DNA from: Lentzea tibetensis
Lineage (GTDB): Bacteria; Actinomycetota; Actinomycetes; Mycobacteriales; Pseudonocardiaceae
Length of the DNA: 64,000 nucleotides
Assembly: GCF_007845675.1 (NCBI RefSeq)
Contig: NZ_VOBR01000009.1
Coordinates: 62,001-126,000 of the forward strand
Reading direction: 5' to 3'
Part shown: piece after piece, positions 19,299-29,906 of the stretch
Layout: the number at the start of each line of letters is the position of its first letter
How positions within the stretch are numbered: the stretch's first letter is position 1
Translations under genes and position numbers: made by a program
The notes under the pieces: model-generated
The model's input: only the letters and a program-made list of their open reading frames with translations
Database searches by the model: none
Told to the model about the DNA's origin: nothing

Positions 19299-19361
19299 AT
19301 GAGCACGTACCAGGACCCCCGGAACAGTGTGACTGACCGAGGACCAAGGGGGCATATGTGA
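19299..19361 (+). CDS. Possible 20-residue leader peptide coupled to the GGDEF gene
   Basis: ATG 19299 opens a 20-codon frame (MSTYQDPRNSVTDRGPRGHM) whose TGA (19359-19361) overlaps the GTG start of the GGDEF gene by GTGA. GAGACGAGG lies 6-14 nt upstream. The peptide is hydrophilic. Size and overlap suggest translational coupling or a regulatory upstream ORF. Real translation is unproven. Confidence 0.4.
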   Translation: MSTYQDPRNSVTDRGPRGHM

Positions 19362-20818
19362 GTTCGAGTTTGACGGATGGGCGTCGAACCAGCACAACGA
19401 TGTGGAAGCGATTCGGTGACTGGGAACTTTGGCGTTTGCCGAGGAAAGCCGTCGCCTATCTACTCACCGTAGAGCTTTCGCTACTCGTTGTGTTGGCCGT
19501 TGTGCTGACGAACTCTCCGCTGCCGTCAAAACTCGATCTGTTGCGCGCGGTGGGATTGTCGCTCGCAATGGTGGTCCATTTGGTCGCCGTCCGAAGGGCC
19601 GAAGAAAGTCGGCGTGACGCGGCACAGGGCCCGCACATCATGCTGACGTCGGTCTGGACGTTCGCGGCTGTCGTCGCGCTGCCCGCGACCCTCACGGTCG
19701 CCCAGATACTGCTCCTCCGCCTCATCACCCTGCAGATCGCCCGCCGATCGCCTCACCGCTACGTCTTCACGTCGGTGAGCATGCTGATCAGCGCGTTGGC
19801 CGGCGCGGGCGTGGTGTGGTGGGCGACGACGTGGCCGCACGCGCACCACGACTGGTACACCGACGTCACGTTCTTCGCGCTGATCGTGCTGGCCGGGGCC
19901 GTCTACGGCGCCCTGCAGGCCGTGCTGGTCGGTTTCGCGATGAAGCTGACGCTCCCCGAGCGCCCGTTCCTGTCCACGCTGGGCAGCCGCGCGGACAACC
20001 TGCTCGACCTCATCACGCTCGCCGGCGGCGCCATCATCGGCCTGCTGATGGTGATGCACTGGGCCGCGCCGCTGCTGGCCCTGCTCCCCATGATCGCGGT
20101 CAACCGGATGCTGGACGAGGCCAGGCAGCGCCAGGAGCACATGGAACGCCTGCTCCGCGAGCAGCGCCAGGCCCACCAGCAGCTCACGCAGGACGCGCAC
20201 ACCGACTTCCGCACCGGCCTGCTGAACACCAACGGCCTCGCCGAGTACGCGAACCGCGTCGTCGAGCGGTGCATGACCGACTCGCAGCCGGTGACGATCC
20301 TGGTCATCGACCTGGACTTCTTCAAGCGCATCAACGACACGTGGGGCCACCCCGCTGGCAACGCCGTGCTCGCCGAGGTCGGCCGGATCCTGCGCGAGAA
20401 GCTCCGCCCCGGCGACGTGGCCGCCCGCGACGGCGGCGAGGAGTTCGTCGTCGCGCTGGCCGACACGGGCCTGGCGCAGGGCGTGGCGATCGCCGAGCGC
20501 ATCCGCGAGGCCATCGGTGAGCTGGCCGTGCTGACCACGGACAAGCACCGCAACGTGGTCACCCTGTACGGCCGCGAGCTGACCGAGGTGGGCGAGCCGG
20601 ACACCCGCGCCATCTCGTCGTCGATCGGCGTGGCCGTGATCCCGGACAACGGCGACAGCCTGGCCGCCGCCCAGCACAGCGCCGACGCGGCCCTCTACAA
20701 GGCCAAGGAGAACGGCCGCAACCAGGTCCGCGTCGCCGGCCTGGACATCCCGCCGCGGCTGCTCCCGGCCCCGCGCCACGACGAGATCACGAAGCCGATC
20801 AGCACCCGCACCGCCTAG
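19358..20818 (+). CDS. Membrane-bound diguanylate cyclase (GGDEF)
   Basis: 486 residues. The N-terminal about 230 residues carry six to seven hydrophobic segments (YLLTVELSLLVVLAVVL, LMVMHWAAPLLALLPMI), a membrane sensor. A short coiled coil follows (DEARQRQEHMERLLREQRQAHQQLTQD), then a GGDEF domain with DFRTGLLN, VIDLDFFKRINDTWGH and the active-site GGEEF in ARDGGEEFVV. The inhibitory RxxD site (RPGD) lies exactly five residues before GGEEF, so product feedback is expected. No EAL domain. It should make c-di-GMP. GTG 19358 with AAGGGGG upstream; it overlaps the putative leader peptide and ends 4 nt into the convergent flavoprotein gene. Confidence 0.93.
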   Translation: MSSSLTDGRRTSTTMWKRFGDWELWRLPRKAVAYLLTVELSLLVVLAVVLTNSPLPSKLDLLRAVGLSLAMVVHLVAVRRAEESRRDAAQGPHIMLTSVWTFAAVVALPATLTVAQILLLRLITLQIARRSPHRYVFTSVSMLISALAGAGVVWWATTWPHAHHDWYTDVTFFALIVLAGAVYGALQAVLVGFAMKLTLPERPFLSTLGSRADNLLDLITLAGGAIIGLLMVMHWAAPLLALLPMIAVNRMLDEARQRQEHMERLLREQRQAHQQLTQDAHTDFRTGLLNTNGLAEYANRVVERCMTDSQPVTILVIDLDFFKRINDTWGHPAGNAVLAEVGRILREKLRPGDVAARDGGEEFVVALADTGLAQGVAIAERIREAIGELAVLTTDKHRNVVTLYGRELTEVGEPDTRAISSSIGVAVIPDNGDSLAAAQHSADAALYKAKENGRNQVRVAGLDIPPRLLPAPRHDEITKPISTRTA

Positions 20819-23394
20819 GCCAGGGCCCGCCGGGCGTAGGCGCGGACGTCCGCGTCGGTGTCGGACAACGCCCCTTCCAGCGCCTCGGCGACCGCACGGG
20901 ACGGCAGCCACCGCGGCAGCACCTGGACCGCCGCCTTGCGGACGTCCAGGTTCGGATCGGCCAGCGCGGTGATCACCGGCTCCGCCGAGTCGAGGGCTCG
21001 CACGGCCCCCACCCGGACCTCCCACGCCTCGTCGGACACGGCCGCGAGCGCCAGTGCGTGCAGGACCCGCGGGTGGTCGAGACGAGGCGCCGACGAGAGC
21101 GCGGCCGCCCGCACCAGCGGGTCCGGATCGGTCGCCAGCCGGGCGAGGACATCGGGATCGTCTATACCTCGGGCCACCAGAACGCGCAGCTCGCGCTCCG
21201 GATCGGTGGCCGCGGCGGCCAGCAGGGCGGTCTCGCGCAGCGACACCAAACCTCGGATCGCCGACGCCCGAGCAGCCGGATCCGGGTCCTCCAGCGCGGC
21301 CGCGTAGTCGGCGGCGCCACCCAGTCGCAACGCCCACAGCACCTCCAGCGCCACCGCGCGCGCCGGTGACGCGACCAGTGCGTCGCGCAGGGCGGGGCTC
21401 GGCGGCACCACCTCCACCAGCTCGCGCAGGCCCGCGGCGGCCGCGGCCCACACGAGCGGATCTTCCATCGCCCTGACCAGCGCGAACTCGAACCCGGACG
21501 GCACGGCCTCGGTCAGCACCGCGACCGCGGCTCGCCGCACGGCCGGATCGGGGTCGGTGAGGAACGGCTCCAGGTCGTTCAGCGCGGGCTGCGTGTCCAC
21601 CAGCTCCAGCAGCGCGAGCAGCCGGGGCGACGAGACGGCCTCGGAGGGGCAGGAAGAGTCCACAGTGGACGAAGAGACCATGACCGACCGGCTGCCGAGG
21701 TACTCGAACGTCCCCGGCCGGTGCTCGACGCCGTCCACCGGCACCAGGTACGGGTTGACCGGCCGTTTCACGAACTCCATCTCGCCCGCGGCGTTCTTCC
21801 GCAGGTTGAGGTGGTGGAACCAGGTGTCGTCGTCACGGCCGGGCAGGTCGACGCGCGAGTGGTAGAGGCCCCAGCGCGACTCGGTGCGCATCAGCGACGC
21901 GTGCGCGGCCATCTCGGCGCAGTCGCGGATGAACGACACCTCCACGCACCGCATCAGCTCGTGCGGCGTCCTGGCCCCCATCGACGCGATCTCGTCGGAC
22001 ATCCGCGCGAACGTCTCCAGCGCGATCTCCAGCTTCGTCTCGGACTTCGGCGGTGCCACGTAGTCGTTCACGAACCGGCGCAGCTTGTACTCGACCTGCG
22101 GCTGCGGCGGCCCGTCCGGGTTGTCCAGGTGCCGGTAGATCAGCGAGCGGGCCTCGTCGACCTGGTCCTCCGGCAGCGCACCACCACGCACGAAATGCTC
22201 GGAAGCGTGCGCACCGGCCAGATCACCGAAGACGAACGCACCGATCATGTAGTTGTGCGGCACGCACGCGAGATCACCGGCCGCATAAAGGCCGGGCACC
22301 GTGGTGAGACCGTTCTCGTCGACCCACACACCCGACGCGGAATGGCCGCCGCACAAGCCGATCTCGGAAATGTGCATCTCGATGTCGTGCGTCCGGTAGT
22401 CGTGCCCGCGCCCGGCGTGAAAAGTTCCCCGAGTAGGGCGTTCCGTGGTGTGCAGAATTCCTTCCAGAGCGGAGATCGACTCCGTCGGCAAATGCGTCAC
22501 CTTCAAATAGATCGGACCGCGCGCGGAAGCGATCTCGGAAGCCACCTCGGCCATCATCTGACCGGACCAGTAGTCGCAGTCGACGAAGCGCTCACCGAGG
22601 CTGTTCACCTGGTACGCGCCAAAGGGATTCCCCACGTACGCGCATGCCGGGCCGTTGTAGTCCTTGATCAGGGGATTGATCTGGAAGCACTCGATCCCGG
22701 ACAGCTCGGCGCCCGCGTGATAGGCCATCGAGTAGCCGTCACCGGCGTTGGTCGGATTTTCATAAGTGCCATACAGATATCCGGAGGCGGGCAGGCCGAG
22801 CCGCCCGGACGGCCCGGTCGCCAGGATCACCGCACCCGCGGACACCGTCACGAACTCGCCGGTGCGCGTGTTGAACCCCGCCGCACCGACCGCGCGCCCG
22901 TCGGACACCAGCACCCGCACCGGCATCACGCGGTTCTCGATCCGGATGCGCTCGCGCATCGACCGCTCGCGCATCACCCGGTACAGCACCTTCTTGACGT
23001 CCTTGCCCTCCGGCATCGGCAGCACGTAGCTGCCGGACCGGTGCACCTGGCGCACGTGGTACTCGCCGAACGAGTCCTTCTCGAACTTCACGCCGTAGCG
23101 CTCGAGTCGTTGCACCATCTCGAAACCACGCGTCGCGGTCTGCATGACCGTGCGTTGATTGACGATGCCGTCGTTGGCGCGGGTGATCTCCGCGACGTAG
23201 TCCTCGGGTAGTGCTTTTCCCGGTATGACAGCGTTGTTGACGCCGTCCATGCCCATCGCCAGCGCGCCGGAGTGCCGCACGTGCGCCTTCTCCAGCAGCA
23301 GCACGGAACGCCCGTGCTCGGCGGCGGTGATCGCGGCCATCGACCCGGCCGTGCCACCGCCGATGACCAGGACGTCGCACTCGTAGTGGCTCAC
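20815..23394 (-). CDS. APS-reductase-alpha-like FAD flavoprotein fused to HEAT repeats
   Basis: 859 residues. Residues 1 to about 575 are a fumarate-reductase/AprA-type flavoprotein: FAD dinucleotide fold DVLVIGGGTAGSMAAITAAE, LLLEKAHVRHSGALAMGMDGVN, AGAVILATGPSGRLG, the late FAD loop GLYAAGDLA, and an end (RTESRWGLYHSRVDLPGRDDD) that follows adenylylsulfate reductase alpha rather than succinate dehydrogenase. Residues about 588-859 are roughly nine HEAT-like helical repeats with DPDPAVRRAAV-type units. The GTG start overlaps the ABC ATPase stop (GTGA). It is the last gene of a coupled operon with a ferredoxin and importer. Electrons probably come from the co-encoded ferredoxin. Substrate unknown. 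Confidence 0.85.
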   Translation of the reverse strand: MSHYECDVLVIGGGTAGSMAAITAAEHGRSVLLLEKAHVRHSGALAMGMDGVNNAVIPGKALPEDYVAEITRANDGIVNQRTVMQTATRGFEMVQRLERYGVKFEKDSFGEYHVRQVHRSGSYVLPMPEGKDVKKVLYRVMRERSMRERIRIENRVMPVRVLVSDGRAVGAAGFNTRTGEFVTVSAGAVILATGPSGRLGLPASGYLYGTYENPTNAGDGYSMAYHAGAELSGIECFQINPLIKDYNGPACAYVGNPFGAYQVNSLGERFVDCDYWSGQMMAEVASEIASARGPIYLKVTHLPTESISALEGILHTTERPTRGTFHAGRGHDYRTHDIEMHISEIGLCGGHSASGVWVDENGLTTVPGLYAAGDLACVPHNYMIGAFVFGDLAGAHASEHFVRGGALPEDQVDEARSLIYRHLDNPDGPPQPQVEYKLRRFVNDYVAPPKSETKLEIALETFARMSDEIASMGARTPHELMRCVEVSFIRDCAEMAAHASLMRTESRWGLYHSRVDLPGRDDDTWFHHLNLRKNAAGEMEFVKRPVNPYLVPVDGVEHRPGTFEYLGSRSVMVSSSTVDSSCPSEAVSSPRLLALLELVDTQPALNDLEPFLTDPDPAVRRAAVAVLTEAVPSGFEFALVRAMEDPLVWAAAAAGLRELVEVVPPSPALRDALVASPARAVALEVLWALRLGGAADYAAALEDPDPAARASAIRGLVSLRETALLAAAATDPERELRVLVARGIDDPDVLARLATDPDPLVRAAALSSAPRLDHPRVLHALALAAVSDEAWEVRVGAVRALDSAEPVITALADPNLDVRKAAVQVLPRWLPSRAVAEALEGALSDTDADVRAYARRALA

Positions 23395-24053
23395 GCCAGC
23401 ACCGCCTTCAGAATCGCGTCGCGATGCACGTCGACCTCGCCCGCGCCCAGCACGACCACCCGGTCGCCCAGCAGCACGGCCTCGTCGACGTCGTGCGTCA
23501 CGAAGATCGTCGTCGTGCCGGTCTCGCGCAGCACATCGGACACCAGCTGCTGCATCGACGCGCGGGTCTGCGCGTCCAGCGCCCCGAACGGCTCGTCCAT
23601 CAGCACCAGGGAAGGCTGCTGCGCCAGCGTCCGCGCGAGCTGCACGCGTTGCCGCATCCCGCCGGACAGCTCGCGCGGCAGATGTCCCTCGAACCCGGAC
23701 AGGCCGACCCGGTCGAGCCACGCCAGCGCCGACGAGCGCCGCACGGCACGCGGAACCCCTTGCAGCGCAAGCGGAAGCTCGACGTTGCGCAGCGCGGTGC
23801 GCCACGGCAGCAGTCCGTCCTCCTGGAACACCAGCGCGCGTTCCCGCGACGTCCCGCGCACCGGGGCACCGTCGACCAGGATCTGCCCGGTGTACGGGAC
23901 GAGCCCGGCCACCGCACGCAGCAACGTCGACTTGCCGCACCCGGACGGCCCGGCGACGACGAGCAGTTCTCCTTGCCGCACTTCCAAGGAGAGATCGGAC
24001 AACACCGGCGAACGTCCGTAGCCGACGCCGAGACCGGAGATCACCACGCTCAT
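23391..24053 (-). CDS. ABC transporter ATPase, SsuB/TauB/NrtD type
   Basis: 220 residues. Walker A GPSGCGKSTLLRAVAG, Q-loop VFQEDGLLPW, signature LSGGMRQRVQLARTLAQ, Walker B LVLMDEPFGALDAQTR and switch His in FVTHDVDEAVLLGD. The wording and length fit importers for sulfonates, taurine or nitrate-like anions. ATG 24053 overlaps the permease stop (ATGA). It energises the adjacent permease and lipoprotein receptor. Confidence 0.93.
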   Translation of the reverse strand: MSVVISGLGVGYGRSPVLSDLSLEVRQGELLVVAGPSGCGKSTLLRAVAGLVPYTGQILVDGAPVRGTSRERALVFQEDGLLPWRTALRNVELPLALQGVPRAVRRSSALAWLDRVGLSGFEGHLPRELSGGMRQRVQLARTLAQQPSLVLMDEPFGALDAQTRASMQQLVSDVLRETGTTTIFVTHDVDEAVLLGDRVVVLGAGEVDVHRDAILKAVLA

Positions 24054-24820
24054 GCGGAAGCCTCCCGAGGCAGCCACCGGGTCACCCGGCGGCCCAGCAG
24101 TTCCACCGCGGACGACGTCAGCCAGCCGAGCAGGCCGATCGTGATCATCCCGACGATCACGCCGGGGTAGTCGACGACCGTGTACGCCTGCCACGTCCGG
24201 TAACCCACACCGAACTGACCGGAGATCATCTCCGCGGAGATCACGCAGATCCACGCGACACCCATGCCGACGGACAGCCCGCCGAAGACACCGGGCAACG
24301 TGCCCGGCAGGACGACGCGGAGCAGCACCTGCCACCGGCTGCCGCCCATGGTGCGCAGCGCGTCCTCCCAGATGGTCGGCAGCGCGCGCACGGCGTGCCG
24401 CGTCGACACCAGGATCGGGAAGAACGCCGCGACGAACGTGATGAACACGATCCCCTGCTCGTCGGTCGGGAACAGCAGGATCGCGATCGGCACCAGTGCG
24501 ATCGCCGGGATCGGCCGCACCACCTCCAGCGACGGCTGGAGCAGGTCGCCCAGCAACCTCGACCGCGCGATGACGACGCCGAACGTCACGCCGAGCACCG
24601 CGGCCAGCAGGAACCCGCTGGTGATGCGCAGCAGGCTGTTCCCGAGGTCCCGGTAGTAGTCGGCCCCGCCGACCTGCTCGCCGAACCGCTGCGCCACCTC
24701 GACCACGGTCGGCAGCTGCGAGAACCGCAGCCACACCTCGGCGTCGGTCGCCGTCAGCACCTGCCACAGCACCAGCCCCACCACCAGCGAGCCGATGCGC
24801 AGGACCCACCGGCCCGCCAT
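24050..24820 (-). CDS. ABC transporter permease, SsuC/TauC type
   Basis: 256 residues with six to seven transmembrane segments (SLVVGLVLWQVLTA, SGFLLAAVLGVTFGVVIA, AIALVPIAILLF, GIVFITFVAAFFPILV). The BPD-type coupling loop is DALRTMGGSRWQVLLRVVLPGTLPGVFGGL. ATG 24820 overlaps the binding-protein stop (ATGA). One permease gene implies a homodimer, as in SsuABC. Confidence 0.93.
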   Translation of the reverse strand: MAGRWVLRIGSLVVGLVLWQVLTATDAEVWLRFSQLPTVVEVAQRFGEQVGGADYYRDLGNSLLRITSGFLLAAVLGVTFGVVIARSRLLGDLLQPSLEVVRPIPAIALVPIAILLFPTDEQGIVFITFVAAFFPILVSTRHAVRALPTIWEDALRTMGGSRWQVLLRVVLPGTLPGVFGGLSVGMGVAWICVISAEMISGQFGVGYRTWQAYTVVDYPGVIVGMITIGLLGWLTSSAVELLGRRVTRWLPREASA

Positions 24821-26136
24821 CACTTCCCCGCCACCGCGAGCGCCTGCTCGAACGTCAGCACCGCACCCCGCTTCGCCGCCGCGGCCTCGGTCGTGAAGGG
24901 CAGCAGCTTCCCGCCGTCGTTCACCCAGAACACGTGCTCGGCGAACCACCGCGTGCCGATCTCGGCGTCCGGCACGTACCCGACGCGCGGCTTCTTGCCG
25001 GTCTGGTTGACCAGCTTCAGCAGCTCGGCCGGCGTCGCGACCGGGCGCGGCGCGGGCTCGCCGTCGAACCACACCTCGCTCGCGGTCGCCGGGTCACCGC
25101 CGATCTTCGCGGGGTTCGTGAGGTCTTCCGTGCTCTCGACGACGGCCTTCAGCGGCTGATCGTCGATGAACTTGTCGACGTCGAGCTCCTCGATGTTGCC
25201 GATCGACTTGAGGAACGGCACGTCGTCCTTCAACGCCTTGCGCAGCACGGACTTCAGGCTCAGGTCGAACGTCGCGATGCCGTTCGGTCCGTTGTAGAGG
25301 TAGACGACCTCGACGGGCAGGCTGGTCGCCTTCGCCACGATCTCCGCGGCCTCCAACGGCTTGGCGTGCAGGAACTTCGTCGCGTCGAGCTGGGCGCGCA
25401 GGAACTCGGCCAGCACCTCGGGCTGCTGCTTCGCGAACGGGTTGCGCACCACGACGCCGTGCAGCGTCGGCAGGTTCAACGCGGCACCGTCGTACAGCAG
25501 CTTCGCCTGCTTGGCGAACACCAGCTGGCCCGGCCACGCCACGAACTGCGACAGGGCGGCGACGTTGCCGGACTGCAGTGCCGAAGCGCCGACCGACGGC
25601 TGCTGGTTCTCCACGGTCACCTTCGTGTCGCCCAAGGCGCGCACCAGCGTGCCGTGGCCCGCGGACCCGACGCTGGCGGACACCTTCTGCCCGGCCAGGT
25701 CGGCCAGCGTGCGCGCGGTGGACGCGGGCGGCACGACGACCGAGTTCAGCGCGCCGCGCGGGTTGTAGCCGGTGACGGACACCATCCGGGTGCCCTCGTC
25801 GCCCTGCTTCTGCGTGCGAGAACCGTTGATGAGCAACGGGTAGTCGCCCATCGAGCCGATGTCGATCTTCCCGGCGATCATCTGCGCGGTGATCGGCGCG
25901 CCGGTGTCGTAGTCCTGCCAGGTGACCTCGTACCGCTTGCCGGTCTTCTTCCCGAGCTCCTTCAGGCGTTCCTCGAAGAAACCCTTGTCCCTCAACAGGG
26001 TTCCGGCGGTCACCGTGTTGATCGTCTTGGACTGGTAGCCGATGACGACGGGGACCGCGTCACCGGACGCCGAACCCGTGCCGCAGGCGGTGACGAGGAG
26101 AGCCGAAACCAGCAGCAGTCTGCGCATCGCTTTCAC
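24820..26136 (-). CDS. SsuA/NMT1-type substrate-binding lipoprotein with a C-terminal extension
   Basis: 438 residues. Lipobox LLLVSALLVTACG predicts lipidation. The core (about 30-330) is a type-II periplasmic binding fold: VVIGYQSKTINTVTAGTLL, GKIDIGSMGDYPLLING, VSASVGSAGHGTLVRAL, LLYDGAALNLPTLHGVVV. About 100 further residues are unusual for SsuA. Their end (WFAEHVFWVNDGGKLLPF ... GAVLTFEQALA) looks reminiscent of NosL-like accessory proteins, a weak similarity by eye. GTG 26136 is preferred because it overlaps the ferredoxin stop by GTGA, as at every other junction of this operon; ATG 26127 is the alternative. Confidence 0.86.
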   Translation of the reverse strand: MKAMRRLLLVSALLVTACGTGSASGDAVPVVIGYQSKTINTVTAGTLLRDKGFFEERLKELGKKTGKRYEVTWQDYDTGAPITAQMIAGKIDIGSMGDYPLLINGSRTQKQGDEGTRMVSVTGYNPRGALNSVVVPPASTARTLADLAGQKVSASVGSAGHGTLVRALGDTKVTVENQQPSVGASALQSGNVAALSQFVAWPGQLVFAKQAKLLYDGAALNLPTLHGVVVRNPFAKQQPEVLAEFLRAQLDATKFLHAKPLEAAEIVAKATSLPVEVVYLYNGPNGIATFDLSLKSVLRKALKDDVPFLKSIGNIEELDVDKFIDDQPLKAVVESTEDLTNPAKIGGDPATASEVWFDGEPAPRPVATPAELLKLVNQTGKKPRVGYVPDAEIGTRWFAEHVFWVNDGGKLLPFTTEAAAAKRGAVLTFEQALAVAGK

Positions 26137-26360
26137 CTCAGCAGGTAGGGCATGTTGATGGTCACGGCGTCCGTGGGGCAGCGGGCGGCGCACGGGCCGC
26201 AGTACCAGCACTCGTCGACGTGCATGTACGCCTTGTTGGTCTCGGGGTTGATCGCCAGCGAGTCCAACGGGCACATGTCGACGCACAGCCGGCAGCCGTC
26301 GATGCACTTGGATTCGTCGATGGTCACCGGAACATCGGCACGGTTGTTGACCAGAGCCAT
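26133..26360 (-). CDS. Two-[4Fe-4S] ferredoxin, APS-reductase-beta-like
   Basis: 75 residues. Two cluster motifs: CIDGCRLCVDMCPLDS and CWYCGPCAARCPTDAV. The spacing in the first (C-x3-C-x2-C-x3-CP) and the segment YMHVDECWYCGPCAARCP parallel the N-terminal part of dissimilatory APS reductase beta rather than a free bacterial ferredoxin. It is the first gene of the operon with importer and flavoprotein, so it most likely delivers electrons to the flavoprotein. The operator cluster lies just upstream. Confidence 0.92.
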   Translation of the reverse strand: MALVNNRADVPVTIDESKCIDGCRLCVDMCPLDSLAINPETNKAYMHVDECWYCGPCAARCPTDAVTINMPYLLR

Positions 26361-26396
26361 GAGTGGTCTCCAGTAGGTAGAAGGAAAAGATAGATC

Positions 26397-26447
26397 GCGA
26401 TATATCGCTACATAACTAGATATGTCGCTACATATCAGCGACAGATA
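26397..26447. promoter_or_regulatory. Operator cluster upstream of the ferredoxin/importer/flavoprotein operon
   Basis: Three related elements. GCGATATATCGC (26397-26408) is a perfect palindrome. TATATCGCTACATA (26401-26414) repeats as TATGTCGCTACATA (26421-26434), 20 bp apart. The second copy lies in the perfect palindrome ATATGTCGCTACATAT (26420-26435). A third, inverted TGTCGCT-like copy is at 26433-26447. The AT-rich sequence stands out from its surroundings. The adjacent GntR protein is the natural binder (inference). Confidence 0.65.
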
Positions 26448-26499
26448 GCGGAAGCCTGTCGACGCAGGTCGACGTGCAGGCGGAAGCGAGGCGCGATGT

Positions 26500-27234
26500 T
26501 CATGACCGGCGCAGCTCCGCTCGCATGGTGAGGCGATCGCCCCGCATGCGGATGAACTCCAGGTCGACCGGGCGGCCGCAGGCGAAGTGGCTCAGCCGTT
26601 CCACGACCATCAACGCAGACCCGCGCGGCACTTCCAGCACAGCGGCGGAGTGCGCGTCGGCGTTCACGGCTTCCAGCGTCACGGACGCGGCGCCCAGCGA
26701 ACGGCCCGAGGTCTGCTCGATGAGCGAGAAGATGTCGCGGTTCTCGAGGTCCAGTCCAAGCAACGGCTCGCCGACGTCGAGCGCGAGGTAGGTCAGGTCG
26801 AGCGACAGCGGCAGGCCGTTGAGGCGCCGCAACCGTTCCACGTACACGACATCAGGAGAGCCGAGTCGCGCGGCGACCGACGAGGGCGCCTTGATCACGC
26901 CCAGGGCGCGCACGTCGTTGGTGACGTCACCGTGCTCGTGCAGGGTTTCGGCCAGTCCCATCAACTGGTTCAGCCCGTGCGCGTACTTCTCGGTGACGAC
27001 GACCGTGCCGACACCGGGCACGCGGTCGATCAGGCCTTCTTCGCGCAGCAGGTCGAGCGCTTCGCGGATGCTGTTGCGCGACACCGAGAACTCGGCGGCG
27101 AGGAAGCGCTCGTCCGGCAGCACACCGCCTGGGTAAGCGCGGCCGACGACCTGCTGGCGGATGACGTCCGCAGCCTGCCGGGCCCGGTCGGCGCGGAGGC
27201 GCCGCTCGGGTGATCCCTGACGTTGGCTGCTCAT
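26500..27234 (-). CDS. GntR-family regulator (HutC/UTRA subfamily)
   Basis: 244 residues. N-terminal winged helix: ARQAADVIRQQVVGRAYPGGVLPDERFLAAEFSVSRNSIREALDLLREEGLI, with GVGTVVV as the wing. The C-terminal UTRA effector domain has VVYVERLRRLNGLPLSLDLTYL, DIFSLIEQTSG and SALMVVERLSHFACGRPVDLEFIRMRGDRL. It lies directly upstream of, and in line with, the ferredoxin operon, with a cluster of palindromes between them. It probably represses that operon until a small-molecule effector binds. Confidence 0.92.
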   Translation of the reverse strand: MSSQRQGSPERRLRADRARQAADVIRQQVVGRAYPGGVLPDERFLAAEFSVSRNSIREALDLLREEGLIDRVPGVGTVVVTEKYAHGLNQLMGLAETLHEHGDVTNDVRALGVIKAPSSVAARLGSPDVVYVERLRRLNGLPLSLDLTYLALDVGEPLLGLDLENRDIFSLIEQTSGRSLGAASVTLEAVNADAHSAAVLEVPRGSALMVVERLSHFACGRPVDLEFIRMRGDRLTMRAELRRS

Positions 27235-27278: not shown

Positions 27279-27337
27279 GTGTTACGCCACCTGGTCAGCG
27301 CGCCGAGCAGCGCAAAGTGCGCAGTAACGCCACCTGG
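27279..27337. repeat. Direct repeat in the GntR promoter region
   Basis: The 13-mer TTACGCCACCTGG / TAACGCCACCTGG occurs twice about 43 bp apart between the GntR gene and znuB. It may be a regulatory element for GntR. Significance is uncertain. Confidence 0.3.
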
Positions 27338-27348
27338 CGCCGGGTCCA

Positions 27349-28164
27349 CTATGTGGAACGTCGCTGGCGCACCCCGATAGCTCTGCATACGAGGTATATC
27401 ACGAAGCTGATGGCCGTGACGAACGCGCTCACCGGCAGACCCGGTTGCAGCGACAGGAGAATCCCGCCCAGCACGGCGACCTCGGCGAACACGACCGACA
27501 ACACGGTCGCGCGCAGCGGTGACGCGGTCACCCGGCACGCGGCCGCCGCGGGCGTGATCATCAAGGCGAGCACGAGAAGCGCACCGACGATCTGCACGCT
27601 CAACGCCGTGGCGACACCGACGAGCACCGCGAAGACGATCGTCAGCGTCTTCACCGGAACCCCGCGCGCCACGGCGACATCCGGGTCGACGGACGCGAAG
27701 TGCAACGGCCGGTAGATGAACGCCAGCACGGCCAGCACGCCGACCGAGCTGCCGACGAGCAGCCACAGGTTCGTCGTGTCGACACCGATGATCTGCCCGG
27801 TCAGCAGGCCGAACTTGTTGGTGGTGCGTCCTTTGTAGAGCGCCACGAACAGGATGCCCAGCCCCAGCCCGAAGGCGAGGATCGAGCCGACGACGGAGTC
27901 GCGGTCCGAGTCGCGCTGGCTCAGCAGTCCCAGCAGCAGGGCCGCGACGACCGAGCCGATCAACGACCCGTAGCCGACGCTGACGCCGAGCAGCAGCGCG
28001 GCCGCGCCGCCGGTGAACGCGAGCTCGCTCGTGCCGTGCACGGCGAACGCCATCTTCCTGGTGACGACGAGCGGTCCGATCACGCCCGCGACGAGGCCGA
28101 GCACGGCACCCGCGATGAGGGCCTGCTGGACGAAGTCGATGCCGAGCAGCTGACCGAAGGTCAT
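27349..28164 (-). CDS. znuB: Zinc/manganese ABC transporter permease (ZnuB-type)
   Basis: 271 residues, eight to nine transmembrane helices of the ABC-3 family: QALIAGAVLGLVAGVIGPLVV, RKMAFAVHGTSELAFTGGAAALLLG, FGLGLGILFVALYKG and the coupling region SVQIVGALLVLALMITPAAAA. ATG 28164 overlaps the ATPase stop (ATGA). It forms the membrane pore of the metal importer. Confidence 0.93.
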   Translation of the reverse strand: MTFGQLLGIDFVQQALIAGAVLGLVAGVIGPLVVTRKMAFAVHGTSELAFTGGAAALLLGVSVGYGSLIGSVVAALLLGLLSQRDSDRDSVVGSILAFGLGLGILFVALYKGRTTNKFGLLTGQIIGVDTTNLWLLVGSSVGVLAVLAFIYRPLHFASVDPDVAVARGVPVKTLTIVFAVLVGVATALSVQIVGALLVLALMITPAAAACRVTASPLRATVLSVVFAEVAVLGGILLSLQPGLPVSAFVTAISFVIYLVCRAIGVRQRRST

Positions 28165-28967
28165 GCGTCCTCTCCAGCCAGGTGGTGCGACTGCCCCTCT
28201 TCGCAGGCGCCGACGACGAGGATCTGGTCGCGGACCTTCACGACCTCGACGTTCGTCCGGTACAGCTCGGAGAGCGTCTCGGACGTCATCACCTCGGACG
28301 GCTTGCCGATCCGGAAGCGGCCCTCCACCAGGTACAGCACCCGGTCGACGAGCGGCAGGACCGGGTTGATCTCGTGCGTCACGAACAGCACGGCCGTGTC
28401 GGCGGTGCGGCGGCGCGCGTCGATCAGGTCGCTGACGCTGCGCTGGTGCGCGAGGTCGAGCGACAGCAGCGGCTCGTCGCAGAGCAGCACCTCGGGGTCG
28501 CCGACGAGCGCCTGGGCGACCCGCAGCCGCTGCTGCTCGCCGCCGGAGAGCAGCCCGATCGGCGCGTCCGCGTAGCTCGTGGCGCCGACGGCGGCGAGCG
28601 CCTCGTCGACCTTCCGCCTGCGCACGCCGCGGCCGCGCAGGCCGGTGCCCCACTCGTGCCCGTCCAGCCCGAACCCGACGAGGTCGCGGCCGCGCAGCGT
28701 GAGGGAGTGGTCGACGGCGCGCTGCTGGGGGATGTAGCCGATGCGCCGGCGGTTGCCGCCCGCGATCTCGACGGTGCCCGCGGACAGCGGCTGGAGGCCG
28801 AGCAGCACGCGCATGAGGCTGGTCTTGCCGGACCCGTTCGGGCCGAGCACGGCGATGAACTCGCCGGGCTCGATCTCCAGGTCGAGACCGTCCCACAGCA
28901 CTCTGTCGCCGTAGGACAGTCGAGCGCCGCGCAGCGCGACGGCGGATCGCGTCATCGTGGCGGTCAC
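28161..28967 (-). CDS. znuC: Zinc/manganese ABC transporter ATPase (ZnuC-type)
   Basis: 268 residues. Walker A GPNGSGKTSLMRVLLGL, Q-loop IGYIPQQRAVDH, signature LLSGGEQQRLRVAQALVG, Walker B VLLCDEPLLSLDL and the H-loop LFVTHEINPVL. The IPQQ and ABC-3 context fit the metal-chelate group. It overlaps both neighbours by 4 nt. Confidence 0.93.
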   Translation of the reverse strand: MTATMTRSAVALRGARLSYGDRVLWDGLDLEIEPGEFIAVLGPNGSGKTSLMRVLLGLQPLSAGTVEIAGGNRRRIGYIPQQRAVDHSLTLRGRDLVGFGLDGHEWGTGLRGRGVRRRKVDEALAAVGATSYADAPIGLLSGGEQQRLRVAQALVGDPEVLLCDEPLLSLDLAHQRSVSDLIDARRRTADTAVLFVTHEINPVLPLVDRVLYLVEGRFRIGKPSEVMTSETLSELYRTNVEVVKVRDQILVVGACEEGQSHHLAGEDA

Positions 28968-29872
28968 CTGCCGAGCGCGTTGACCAACGCGTCCACCTGC
29001 TGCGTCATCCAGTCAAGGTAACCCGTGACGCCCTCCGGGAGCGTCTCGGACACGGACACGACCGGGATGCCCTGCGCCTTCGCGCTCTCGGCGAGCTGCT
29101 TGGTCACGGGGTTCTCGGTCTGCGAGTTGTCGATCAGCACGGCGATCTGCTTGGTCTCGACCAGCTGCCTGGTCTCGGCCAGCGCGGCTGCGGGCACGTC
29201 GGACTCGGCCTCGACGGCCTTGGTGAACGCCTCGGGCGTCACGTCGTCGGCGACGGCGGCGTCGAGCAGGTAGTGGGCGACTGGCTCGGTCGCGACGACC
29301 TTCTGCTCGTGCTTGACCTTCTGGACGCGCTCGAGCAGTGCGTCGATCTTGGTGCCGAACTCCTTCGCGTTCGCCTCGAAGGTGGCCTTCTTGTCCGGTG
29401 CGACCTCGCCGAGGTCGACCGCGGCCTGCTCGGCGACCTTCTTCACGGTCGGCAGGTCGTACCAGACGTGCTCGTTCGTCTCGTGGTCGTGCTCGGCGCC
29501 GTCCGGCGCGGCGTGCGCCTCGTTGCCGGCCACCACGAACGCCTCGATCTTCTTGGCGCCCTCGGTCTCGGTGCCGAGCAGCTTGGCGAAGAAGTCGTCG
29601 TAGCCGCCGCCGTTGAAGATGACGAGCTCGGCCTCGCGCACCGCGACGGCGTCGGCGGGCTTGCTCTCGTAGGCGTGCGGGTCGGACGCCGGGTCGTTGA
29701 TGATCGAGGTGACCTCGACCGCGTCACCGCCGACGGCCTGCACGACGCTGCCCCACACGTTCGTGGACGCGGCGACCTTGATCTTGCCGTTGCCGGTGGT
29801 GGTCGCGCCTGCCCCGCACGCGGTCAGGCTGATGGCGACCAGAGCGCCGATCAGGGCGTTGCGGAGAGTCAT
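28964..29872 (-). CDS. znuA: Zinc-binding lipoprotein of the ZnuABC importer
   Basis: 302 residues. Lipobox LVAISLTACG; cluster A-1 metal-receptor fold: VAASTNVWGSVVQAVGGD, ASDPHAYESKPAD (first His ligand), FNGGGYDDFF and VIDNSQTENP. A short His-rich loop EAHAAPDGAEHDHETNEHVW is characteristic of zinc-specific receptors. ATG 29872 is preferred over GTG 29881 because GAGGTG then serves as ribosome-binding site. First gene of znuACB, behind a Zur-like box. Confidence 0.93.
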   Translation of the reverse strand: MTLRNALIGALVAISLTACGAGATTTGNGKIKVAASTNVWGSVVQAVGGDAVEVTSIINDPASDPHAYESKPADAVAVREAELVIFNGGGYDDFFAKLLGTETEGAKKIEAFVVAGNEAHAAPDGAEHDHETNEHVWYDLPTVKKVAEQAAVDLGEVAPDKKATFEANAKEFGTKIDALLERVQKVKHEQKVVATEPVAHYLLDAAVADDVTPEAFTKAVEAESDVPAAALAETRQLVETKQIAVLIDNSQTENPVTKQLAESAKAQGIPVVSVSETLPEGVTGYLDWMTQQVDALVNALGR

Positions 29873-29906
29873 CGGAGGCACCTCGACAGTTCACGCGATC
29901 TAGGAA

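Follow-up and report, generated by a model that had tools for sequence, protein, structure and literature searches.

An operon joining a sulfonate-type importer to an AprA-like flavoprotein in Lentzea tibetensis and other soil bacteria

Many soil bacteria have in common a small gene set which, judged from its sequence, seems to import a sulfur-bearing molecule for an enzyme like AprA, the alpha subunit of dissimilatory adenylylsulfate (APS) reductase. Here, we describe this gene set in a stretch of 64,000 nucleotides from Lentzea tibetensis (contig NZ_VOBR01000009.1, positions 62,001 to 126,000; hereafter the window), whose genome measures 9.36 Mb. Six intact open reading frames follow one another on the minus strand and encode a GntR-family regulator, a ferredoxin, a lipoprotein receptor, the permease and the ATPase of an ABC importer, and a flavoprotein fused to HEAT repeats. 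What can such a combination do? Our leading but tentative reading, to which we give slightly less than an even chance, is that a sulfonate-type anion is imported and that its sulfur is freed as sulfite by the ferredoxin-driven flavoenzyme.

The gene set is well conserved. When contigs from one genome per species were scanned with the flavoprotein, at least 588 related stretches were found; the best 80, all from actinomycetes, were fetched, and in 76 of them tblastn placed the six genes in the same order on one strand. Three of the four exceptions (L051, L068 and L108) end at contig ends, while in the fourth, L043 of Antrihabitans, the GntR gene and the full ferredoxin gene do not stand beside the remaining operon genes. 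The start of that locus (1-1716) holds the end of a ferredoxin gene and more importer genes, which suggests a second, rearranged copy. Among the matches listed, the closest named locus is that of Lentzea nigeriaca, with a flavoprotein identity of 80%. Its distribution within the genus is patchy, with matches above the cut-off in 8 of 25 genomes, L. tibetensis included, and in 9 of the 61 genomes searched in all. No further gene family recurring across distant genera was seen around the 80 loci, the clustering being judged by eye and noisy from shadow frames.

The same enzyme is also found outside actinomycetes. Among 72,556 plasmid records searched by tblastn, 53 match the flavoprotein (E ≤1e-40) and 48 the ferredoxin (E ≤1e-8), and when the two lists were compared by eye all the 48 were among the 53; the five records devoid of the ferredoxin match the flavoprotein only in part. 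Sixteen of the 51 non-actinomycete records, picked for genus spread and annotation, were examined, one of them supplying most of the queries for the survey of gene presence. Flavoprotein, ferredoxin and HEAT protein are present in all the 16 loci, permease and ATPase in 14, and the receptor in 13. Thus the association of ferredoxin and transporter with the flavoprotein, on which the initial annotation had staked its reading, holds in 76 of 80 actinomycete loci and in most of the 16 others. Regulators differ among the latter: GntR is found in six and a Crp/Fnr-type protein is annotated in seven, and a LysR-type protein adjoins the importer in Pseudanabaena and Leptolyngbya. Long LysR-type regulators were observed beside cyanobacterial copies at L112 (6643-8658) and L118 (6397-8433); that of L112 bears a sub-threshold NMT1-type binding-protein domain at its C-terminus and perhaps senses the same ligand as the receptor.

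The flavoprotein, its ferredoxin and the importer

The flavoprotein is by score a member of NF010374 (PRK13800; 1484.9 bits against a cut-off of 1196) and also exceeds the cut-off of NF006131 (PRK08275; 861.7 against 587). The name of these families, 'fumarate reductase/succinate dehydrogenase flavoprotein subunit', implies kinship to SdhA/FrdA, whereas our trees put the family on the side of AprA and the methanogen 3′-phosphoadenylylsulfate (PAPS) reductase MtPAPSR. The name therefore looks misleading, and a family that spans at least three phyla goes under that of a respiratory enzyme. Of the proteins with solved structures, the alpha subunit of MtPAPSR comes nearest (8a8o_A, E 1.1e-58, residues 6-561 aligned). 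The scores stay far under the cut-offs of the AprA models (NF005331, 269.6 against 557; TIGR02061, 140.7 against 641.75) and of TfrA (150.6) and SdhA/FrdA (133.3). In a tree of 36 rows the family stands beside AprA and MtPAPSR with support 97/92, and with 97/95 in a second tree of 26 of these rows, from which five family members, four rows of the own genome and TcuA were taken out; A. fulgidus AprA enters both as residues 22-293 and 426-619 only, and the position of AsfA shifts between them. Constraining the family with SdhA/NadB is rejected modestly (approximately unbiased test, p 0.0385), long branches being present. The family also lies apart from more distant rows of the own genome, which we take to be ketosteroid-dehydrogenase-like, while FrdA and urocanate reductase, compared outside the trees by scores alone, rank lower. 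In the fold search MtPAPSR was listed first but tied with succinate dehydrogenase and FrdA, so that this search did not separate the two sides. Model scores, the best solved relative and both trees thus bear out the earlier view of a flavoprotein nearer to AprA than to SdhA, and we regard a place on the AprA/PAPSR side, rather than with SdhA/NadB, as well supported but not final.

Is it then an APS reductase? In A. fulgidus AprA, Trp234 and Arg265 are presumably the contacts of APS and sulfite, and we take Asn74 and His398 to be active-site residues in contact with the substrate. Since residues 195-356 of the predicted structure have a predicted local distance difference test (pLDDT) value below 50 (mean 68), the pocket was not taken from that model. 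AprA positions were counted by hand on an alignment to solved relatives. In all 22 family members aligned, Trp234 is replaced by a tyrosine (Tyr211) and Arg265 by a leucine (Leu242), while Asn74 is kept as Asn53. His351 is likewise invariant and aligns with His346 of MtPAPSR; its equivalence to AprA His398 is assumed, AprA residues 294-425 being outside the alignment. Lys120, Arg121 and Ser122 are named for PAPS specificity of MtPAPSR in the accessible part of its description (PMC10322725). At these places all the 22 members have Val117 and His118, followed by arginine (12) or histidine (10) at position 119. Residues invariant in this family in particular include His118, Glu212, His301, His326 and His380, and also a Tyr-Val-Leu-Pro-Met-Pro stretch, opposite which both references are gapped. 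By the tests of curated cut-offs and of the presumed contacts, the flavoprotein is not an APS reductase. Because these contacts and the PAPS residues are replaced while the asparagine is kept, the family probably has the frame of its chemistry in common with APS reductase, but probably not the substrate. We therefore regard it as very improbable that the operon is an alternative APS or PAPS reductase which makes sulfite from imported sulfate for assimilation, as in the methanogen. The nearest solved relative is indeed such an enzyme, but neither ATP sulfurylase nor APS kinase is annotated at any of the 16 loci (gene tables of the plasmids being incomplete, and the actinomycete loci unannotated), and CysH is over its cut-off in 16 of 16 genomes of the genus searched.

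The ferredoxin had been called AprB-like, a label that suits its eight cysteines in two 4Fe-4S motifs. All 21 ferredoxins aligned, which come from three phyla, keep these cysteines and Trp52. AprB and the beta subunit of MtPAPSR are among its profile hits, together with many other ferredoxins, some scoring better, and it remains under the AprB cut-off (TIGR02060, 32.4 against 135.65). Trp52 is a candidate counterpart of Trp42 of the methanogen subunit, the tryptophan proposed for electron transfer. As for the C-terminal part of the flavoprotein, PF13646 and PF02985 are over their cut-offs and nine to ten helix pairs are modelled across residues 590-858, in agreement with the about nine HEAT repeats counted before. 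The HEAT part is a stand-alone gene in all the 16 non-actinomycete loci and is fused to the flavoprotein in actinomycetes, and from this fusion we infer that the two work together. To the membrane association proposed at first for the flavoprotein-ferredoxin complex, the sequence lends no support.

What is brought in by the importer? Permease and ATPase score with sulfonate/taurine importer models, and sulfonate receptors head the fold list of the binding protein with SsuA nearest; these results support a sulfonate-type importer, which the initial annotation had called SsuABC-type. The receptor is under the SsuA cut-off (TIGR01728, 122.4 against 163.5) and below that of TauA too. Its C-terminal tail, outside the span covered by the fold search, resembles in homologues the copper lipoprotein NosL: PF05573 is over its cut-off in three of nine non-actinomycete homologues and matches eight of nine at E <0.1, whereas it gives no match to the tail of the window receptor alone. 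A CxxC-type metal site, which we take to be a NosL feature, is not conserved in the aligned tails.

The receptor fold suits NrtA, CmpA and Thi5-type proteins as well, and this leaves some room for a substrate without sulfur: a nitrogen or carbon compound (a carboxylate, a pyrimidine or an aromatic) would be imported, and hydride transfer would then reduce or oxidise it in the manner of fumarate or urocanate reductases. The superfamily of the flavoprotein and the histidine kept in all 22 members (His351) would fit, the GntR protein scores with PhnF and HutC models (both below cut-off), and 9 of the 16 loci have no sulfur-related neighbour by annotation. Against these points stand the place of the flavoprotein on the AprA side, its AprB-like partner, the sulfonate receptors at the head of the fold list, and sulfur-related neighbours in Pseudomonadota and Cyanobacteria; we hold this alternative to be possible but rather unlikely.

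The proposed reaction and the neighbours of the operon

In the desulfonation that we favour, a small sulfonate-type anion (a sulfonate, a sulfate ester or a similar R-SO3-) would be taken up by the lipoprotein receptor and the ABC importer. The dedicated 2x[4Fe-4S] ferredoxin would load the AprA-like flavoprotein with electrons in the cytosol, and the imported compound would be split reductively to give sulfite. A flavin N5-sulfite adduct is a plausible intermediate, as in APS reductase, and the sulfite may then enter ordinary sulfur assimilation. The HEAT part might be a scaffold or an assembly factor for the flavoprotein-ferredoxin complex, and the GntR protein may sense the substrate or the product.

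Neighbouring genes give hints of various kinds. By annotation, checked in part with profiles, 7 of the 16 non-actinomycete loci have sulfur-related genes at a distance of up to about 9 kb. Pseudanabaena and Leptolyngbya carry TauE and a sulfate-exporter type protein, and Aquabacterium carries TauE; Nostoc has sulfonate receptors, Cupriavidus an NtaA/DmoA oxygenase with an SsuA-type importer, Sinorhizobium TauD together with importers for sulfonate and sulfate, and Paraburkholderia an SsuD-like oxygenase, a rhodanese and an annotated mercaptopropionate dioxygenase, which has no NCBIfam match. A TSUP transporter lies farther away at L110, and the remaining loci and the window have no sulfur-related neighbour by annotation. 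In Methylobacterium (L115) the importer is followed by FdxA and ferredoxin-NADP reductase, each within 25 bases, and in Acidithiobacillus (L113) the HEAT gene is followed after 2 bases by FdxA and after a further 148 by a large NAD(P)H-type oxidoreductase; these arrangements suggest electron supply to the enzyme. An Mrp/NBP35 ATPase is annotated beside the three cyanobacterial copies, and Pfam, confirming the one checked, labels it an NTPase of iron transfer, as would suit an enzyme with iron-sulfur clusters. Finally, a DUF971/GBBH-like protein is annotated beside 9 of the 16 copies and confirmed by Pfam in the three checked.

AprAB is able to run in the oxidising direction, and sulfite-exporter genes adjoin some copies. 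Could the unit then work in reverse, capturing or oxidising sulfite or a sulfite-like product for detoxification? Such a unit needs no importer of the sulfonate class, and the electron-supply genes beside two copies point to reduction, so that we give scarcely any credence to it.

The L. tibetensis genome has a CysH over its cut-off and an SsuD-like oxygenase (443.5 bits against a cut-off of 518.2). Therefore, as far as the gene content tells, the operon is an addition to the ordinary sulfur pathways and does not replace them. Among the papers listed by our literature searches, which cover few subscription journals and in part gave only the best matches, there was none on this gene set. The accessible part of a study of sulfur-starved Rhodococcus (PMC8557817) does not mention it either, no search for the operon having been made in that strain.

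Control elements, junctions and flanking genes

Upstream of the GntR gene lies a conserved element, GGTGGCGTAAC in the window (consensus GGTGGCGYAAY), separated from the GntR start by 46 bases. Of 77 upstream regions (the 76 loci and the window), 58 contain it; because the GntR start was set from a fixed length, some of the misses may be artefacts. Across the 76 loci the core matches 61 times within upstream regions and 18 times elsewhere (2.66 Mb, both strands counted). A role as a global sulfur regulon site was considered and set aside. In the whole L. tibetensis genome there are 20 matches, the extended form occurs solely at the site upstream of GntR, and the reversed control pattern is commoner (63 matches), and for these reasons the element is likelier a candidate local operator than a global regulon site. 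GntR and ferredoxin genes abut or overlap in many relatives; the transcript therefore probably begins with the GntR gene, whose product would thus regulate its own expression. An AT-rich operator cluster had also been proposed between these two genes. The palindrome itself, GATATGTAGCGACATATC, is real in the window, where it matches three times at two places with up to three mismatches against 0.01 expected (0 of 100 shuffles reach three), but as a general operator it fails, since none of the 80 relatives fetched has a copy with four or fewer mismatches.

The claim of four consecutive 4-nt overlaps stands for two junctions, permease/ATPase (ATGA) and ATPase/flavoprotein (GTGA). The other two need GTG starts: with the ATG start at 26127 the binding protein gene is spaced from the ferredoxin gene, and with ATG at 24820 the permease gene overlaps the binding protein gene by 1 nt only. 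Coordinates are collected in Table 1. Directly upstream on the same strand (27349-29881) lies a three-gene metal importer of the zinc/manganese type, AztABC/ZnuABC-like with scores below cut-offs. The convergent gene downstream (19358-20818) encodes a diguanylate cyclase (GGDEF over cut-off), the N-terminal half of which is hydrophobic by eye. A match to the ASdes sRNA family within the ATPase gene (23473-23525; 24.5 bits against a cut-off of 40) is taken as chance.

Table 1. Features of the operon in the window
Feature	Position	Strand	Basis or remark
Conserved upstream element GGTGGCGTAAC	27281..27291	-	Candidate for an operator or for part of a promoter
GntR-family regulator with UTRA domain	26500..27234	-	PF00392 and PF07702 over cut-off
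AT-rich palindrome GATATGTAGCGACATATC with its near-copy, in the GntR-ferredoxin gap	26399..26436		In the window only
75-aa ferredoxin, two 4Fe-4S sites, AprB-like, invariant Trp52	26133..26360	-	Profile and alignment
Lipoprotein substrate-binding protein, SsuA/TauA fold, C-terminal extension	24820..26127	-	GTG start possible at 26136
NosL-like C-terminal domain of binding protein (residues ~350-435)	24823..25080	-	Alignment with homologues
ABC permease, nitrate/sulfonate/taurine type	24050..24820	-	GTG start possible at 24823
ABC ATPase, taurine type as top score	23391..24053	-	Profile scores
859-aa flavoprotein (residues 1 to ~560) fused to HEAT repeats	20815..23394	-	NCBIfam NF010374 (PRK13800)
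HEAT-repeat part (residues ~590-859)	20818..21627	-	Pfam and predicted structure

Relation to known systems

A system of similar layout is asfRABC, the arylsulfonate desulfurisation cluster of Pseudomonas putida S-313 and Cupriavidus metallidurans, in which, according to the accessible parts of two papers (PMC4267179, PMC2864759), a flavoprotein/reductase, a ferredoxin and a sulfonate-type importer serve sulfur scavenging; its regulator is of the LysR type. In C. metallidurans, AsfA and AsfB (Rmet_4334/5) were located not by annotation but by interpolating locus tags between TauD genes: six TauD hits fit six tags in order (Rmet_4136 at ~710 kb, Rmet_4409 at ~1004 kb) and predict a position of ~924 kb, and a flavoprotein-ferredoxin pair at 927.9-929.9 kb was taken as AsfA/AsfB, while a TcuA-like gene at ~794 kb was considered and set aside. 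With this pair the proteins of the window are only distant kin (28% over 236 aa for the flavoprotein and 34% over 56 aa for the ferredoxin), and orthology to it was therefore rejected.

The layout shared with asf invites another thought, that flavoprotein and ferredoxin are an electron supply for a desulfonating oxygenase elsewhere in the cell, as proposed for AsfA/AsfB and Ssu with arylsulfonates. The SsuD-like oxygenase of the own genome could be the partner, and according to the accessible part of the review, P. putida S-313 with a mutated asfA no longer uses arylsulfonates, and asf is said to complement ssu (PMC4267179). Nevertheless, the putative AsfA is distant, its score on NF006131 being 56.2 bits (cut-off 587), no oxygenase gene was noticed among conserved neighbours, and an AprA-like active site would be odd on an electron shuttle, so that such a role appears unlikely to us.

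In its boldest form the favoured reading becomes an oxygen-independent, ferredoxin-driven reductive desulfonation by a kin of AprA with a rebuilt sulfate pocket and an importer of its own. It is doubtful, if conceivable, that this form is right, and the same doubt applies to its supposed carriers (soil actinomycetes, rhizobia, Burkholderiales, a methanotroph and cyanobacteria) and to the bonds supposed to be split, C-S (or O-S, N-S, S-S) in imported sulfonyl compounds. Weighing slightly against it, the review names, in its accessible part, the Ssu oxygenase as partner of Asf (PMC4267179). AsfAB might, for all that, share the same reductive chemistry. If the proposal were true, it would be a second, oxygen-independent way of taking sulfur from organic sulfonyl compounds, and it would show how an enzyme of the sulfate-respiration type was recruited by aerobes, as we take the hosts of the operon to be. 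The same review, as far as accessible, names sulfate esters and sulfonates as the main forms in which sulfur occurs in soil (PMC4267179).

Two further systems frame the operon. It resembles SsuABC and TauABC in permease and ATPase scores and in the receptor fold, but its receptor is about 100 residues longer, with the NosL-like tail. With MtPAPSR and AprAB it shares the fold family, a partner ferredoxin with eight cysteines, the conserved asparagine and a histidine aligned with that of MtPAPSR and presumably matching that of AprA, while it differs in the replaced tryptophan, arginine and PAPS residues and in scores under the AprA and AprB cut-offs; and, unlike either of them, it is tied to an importer and to HEAT repeats.

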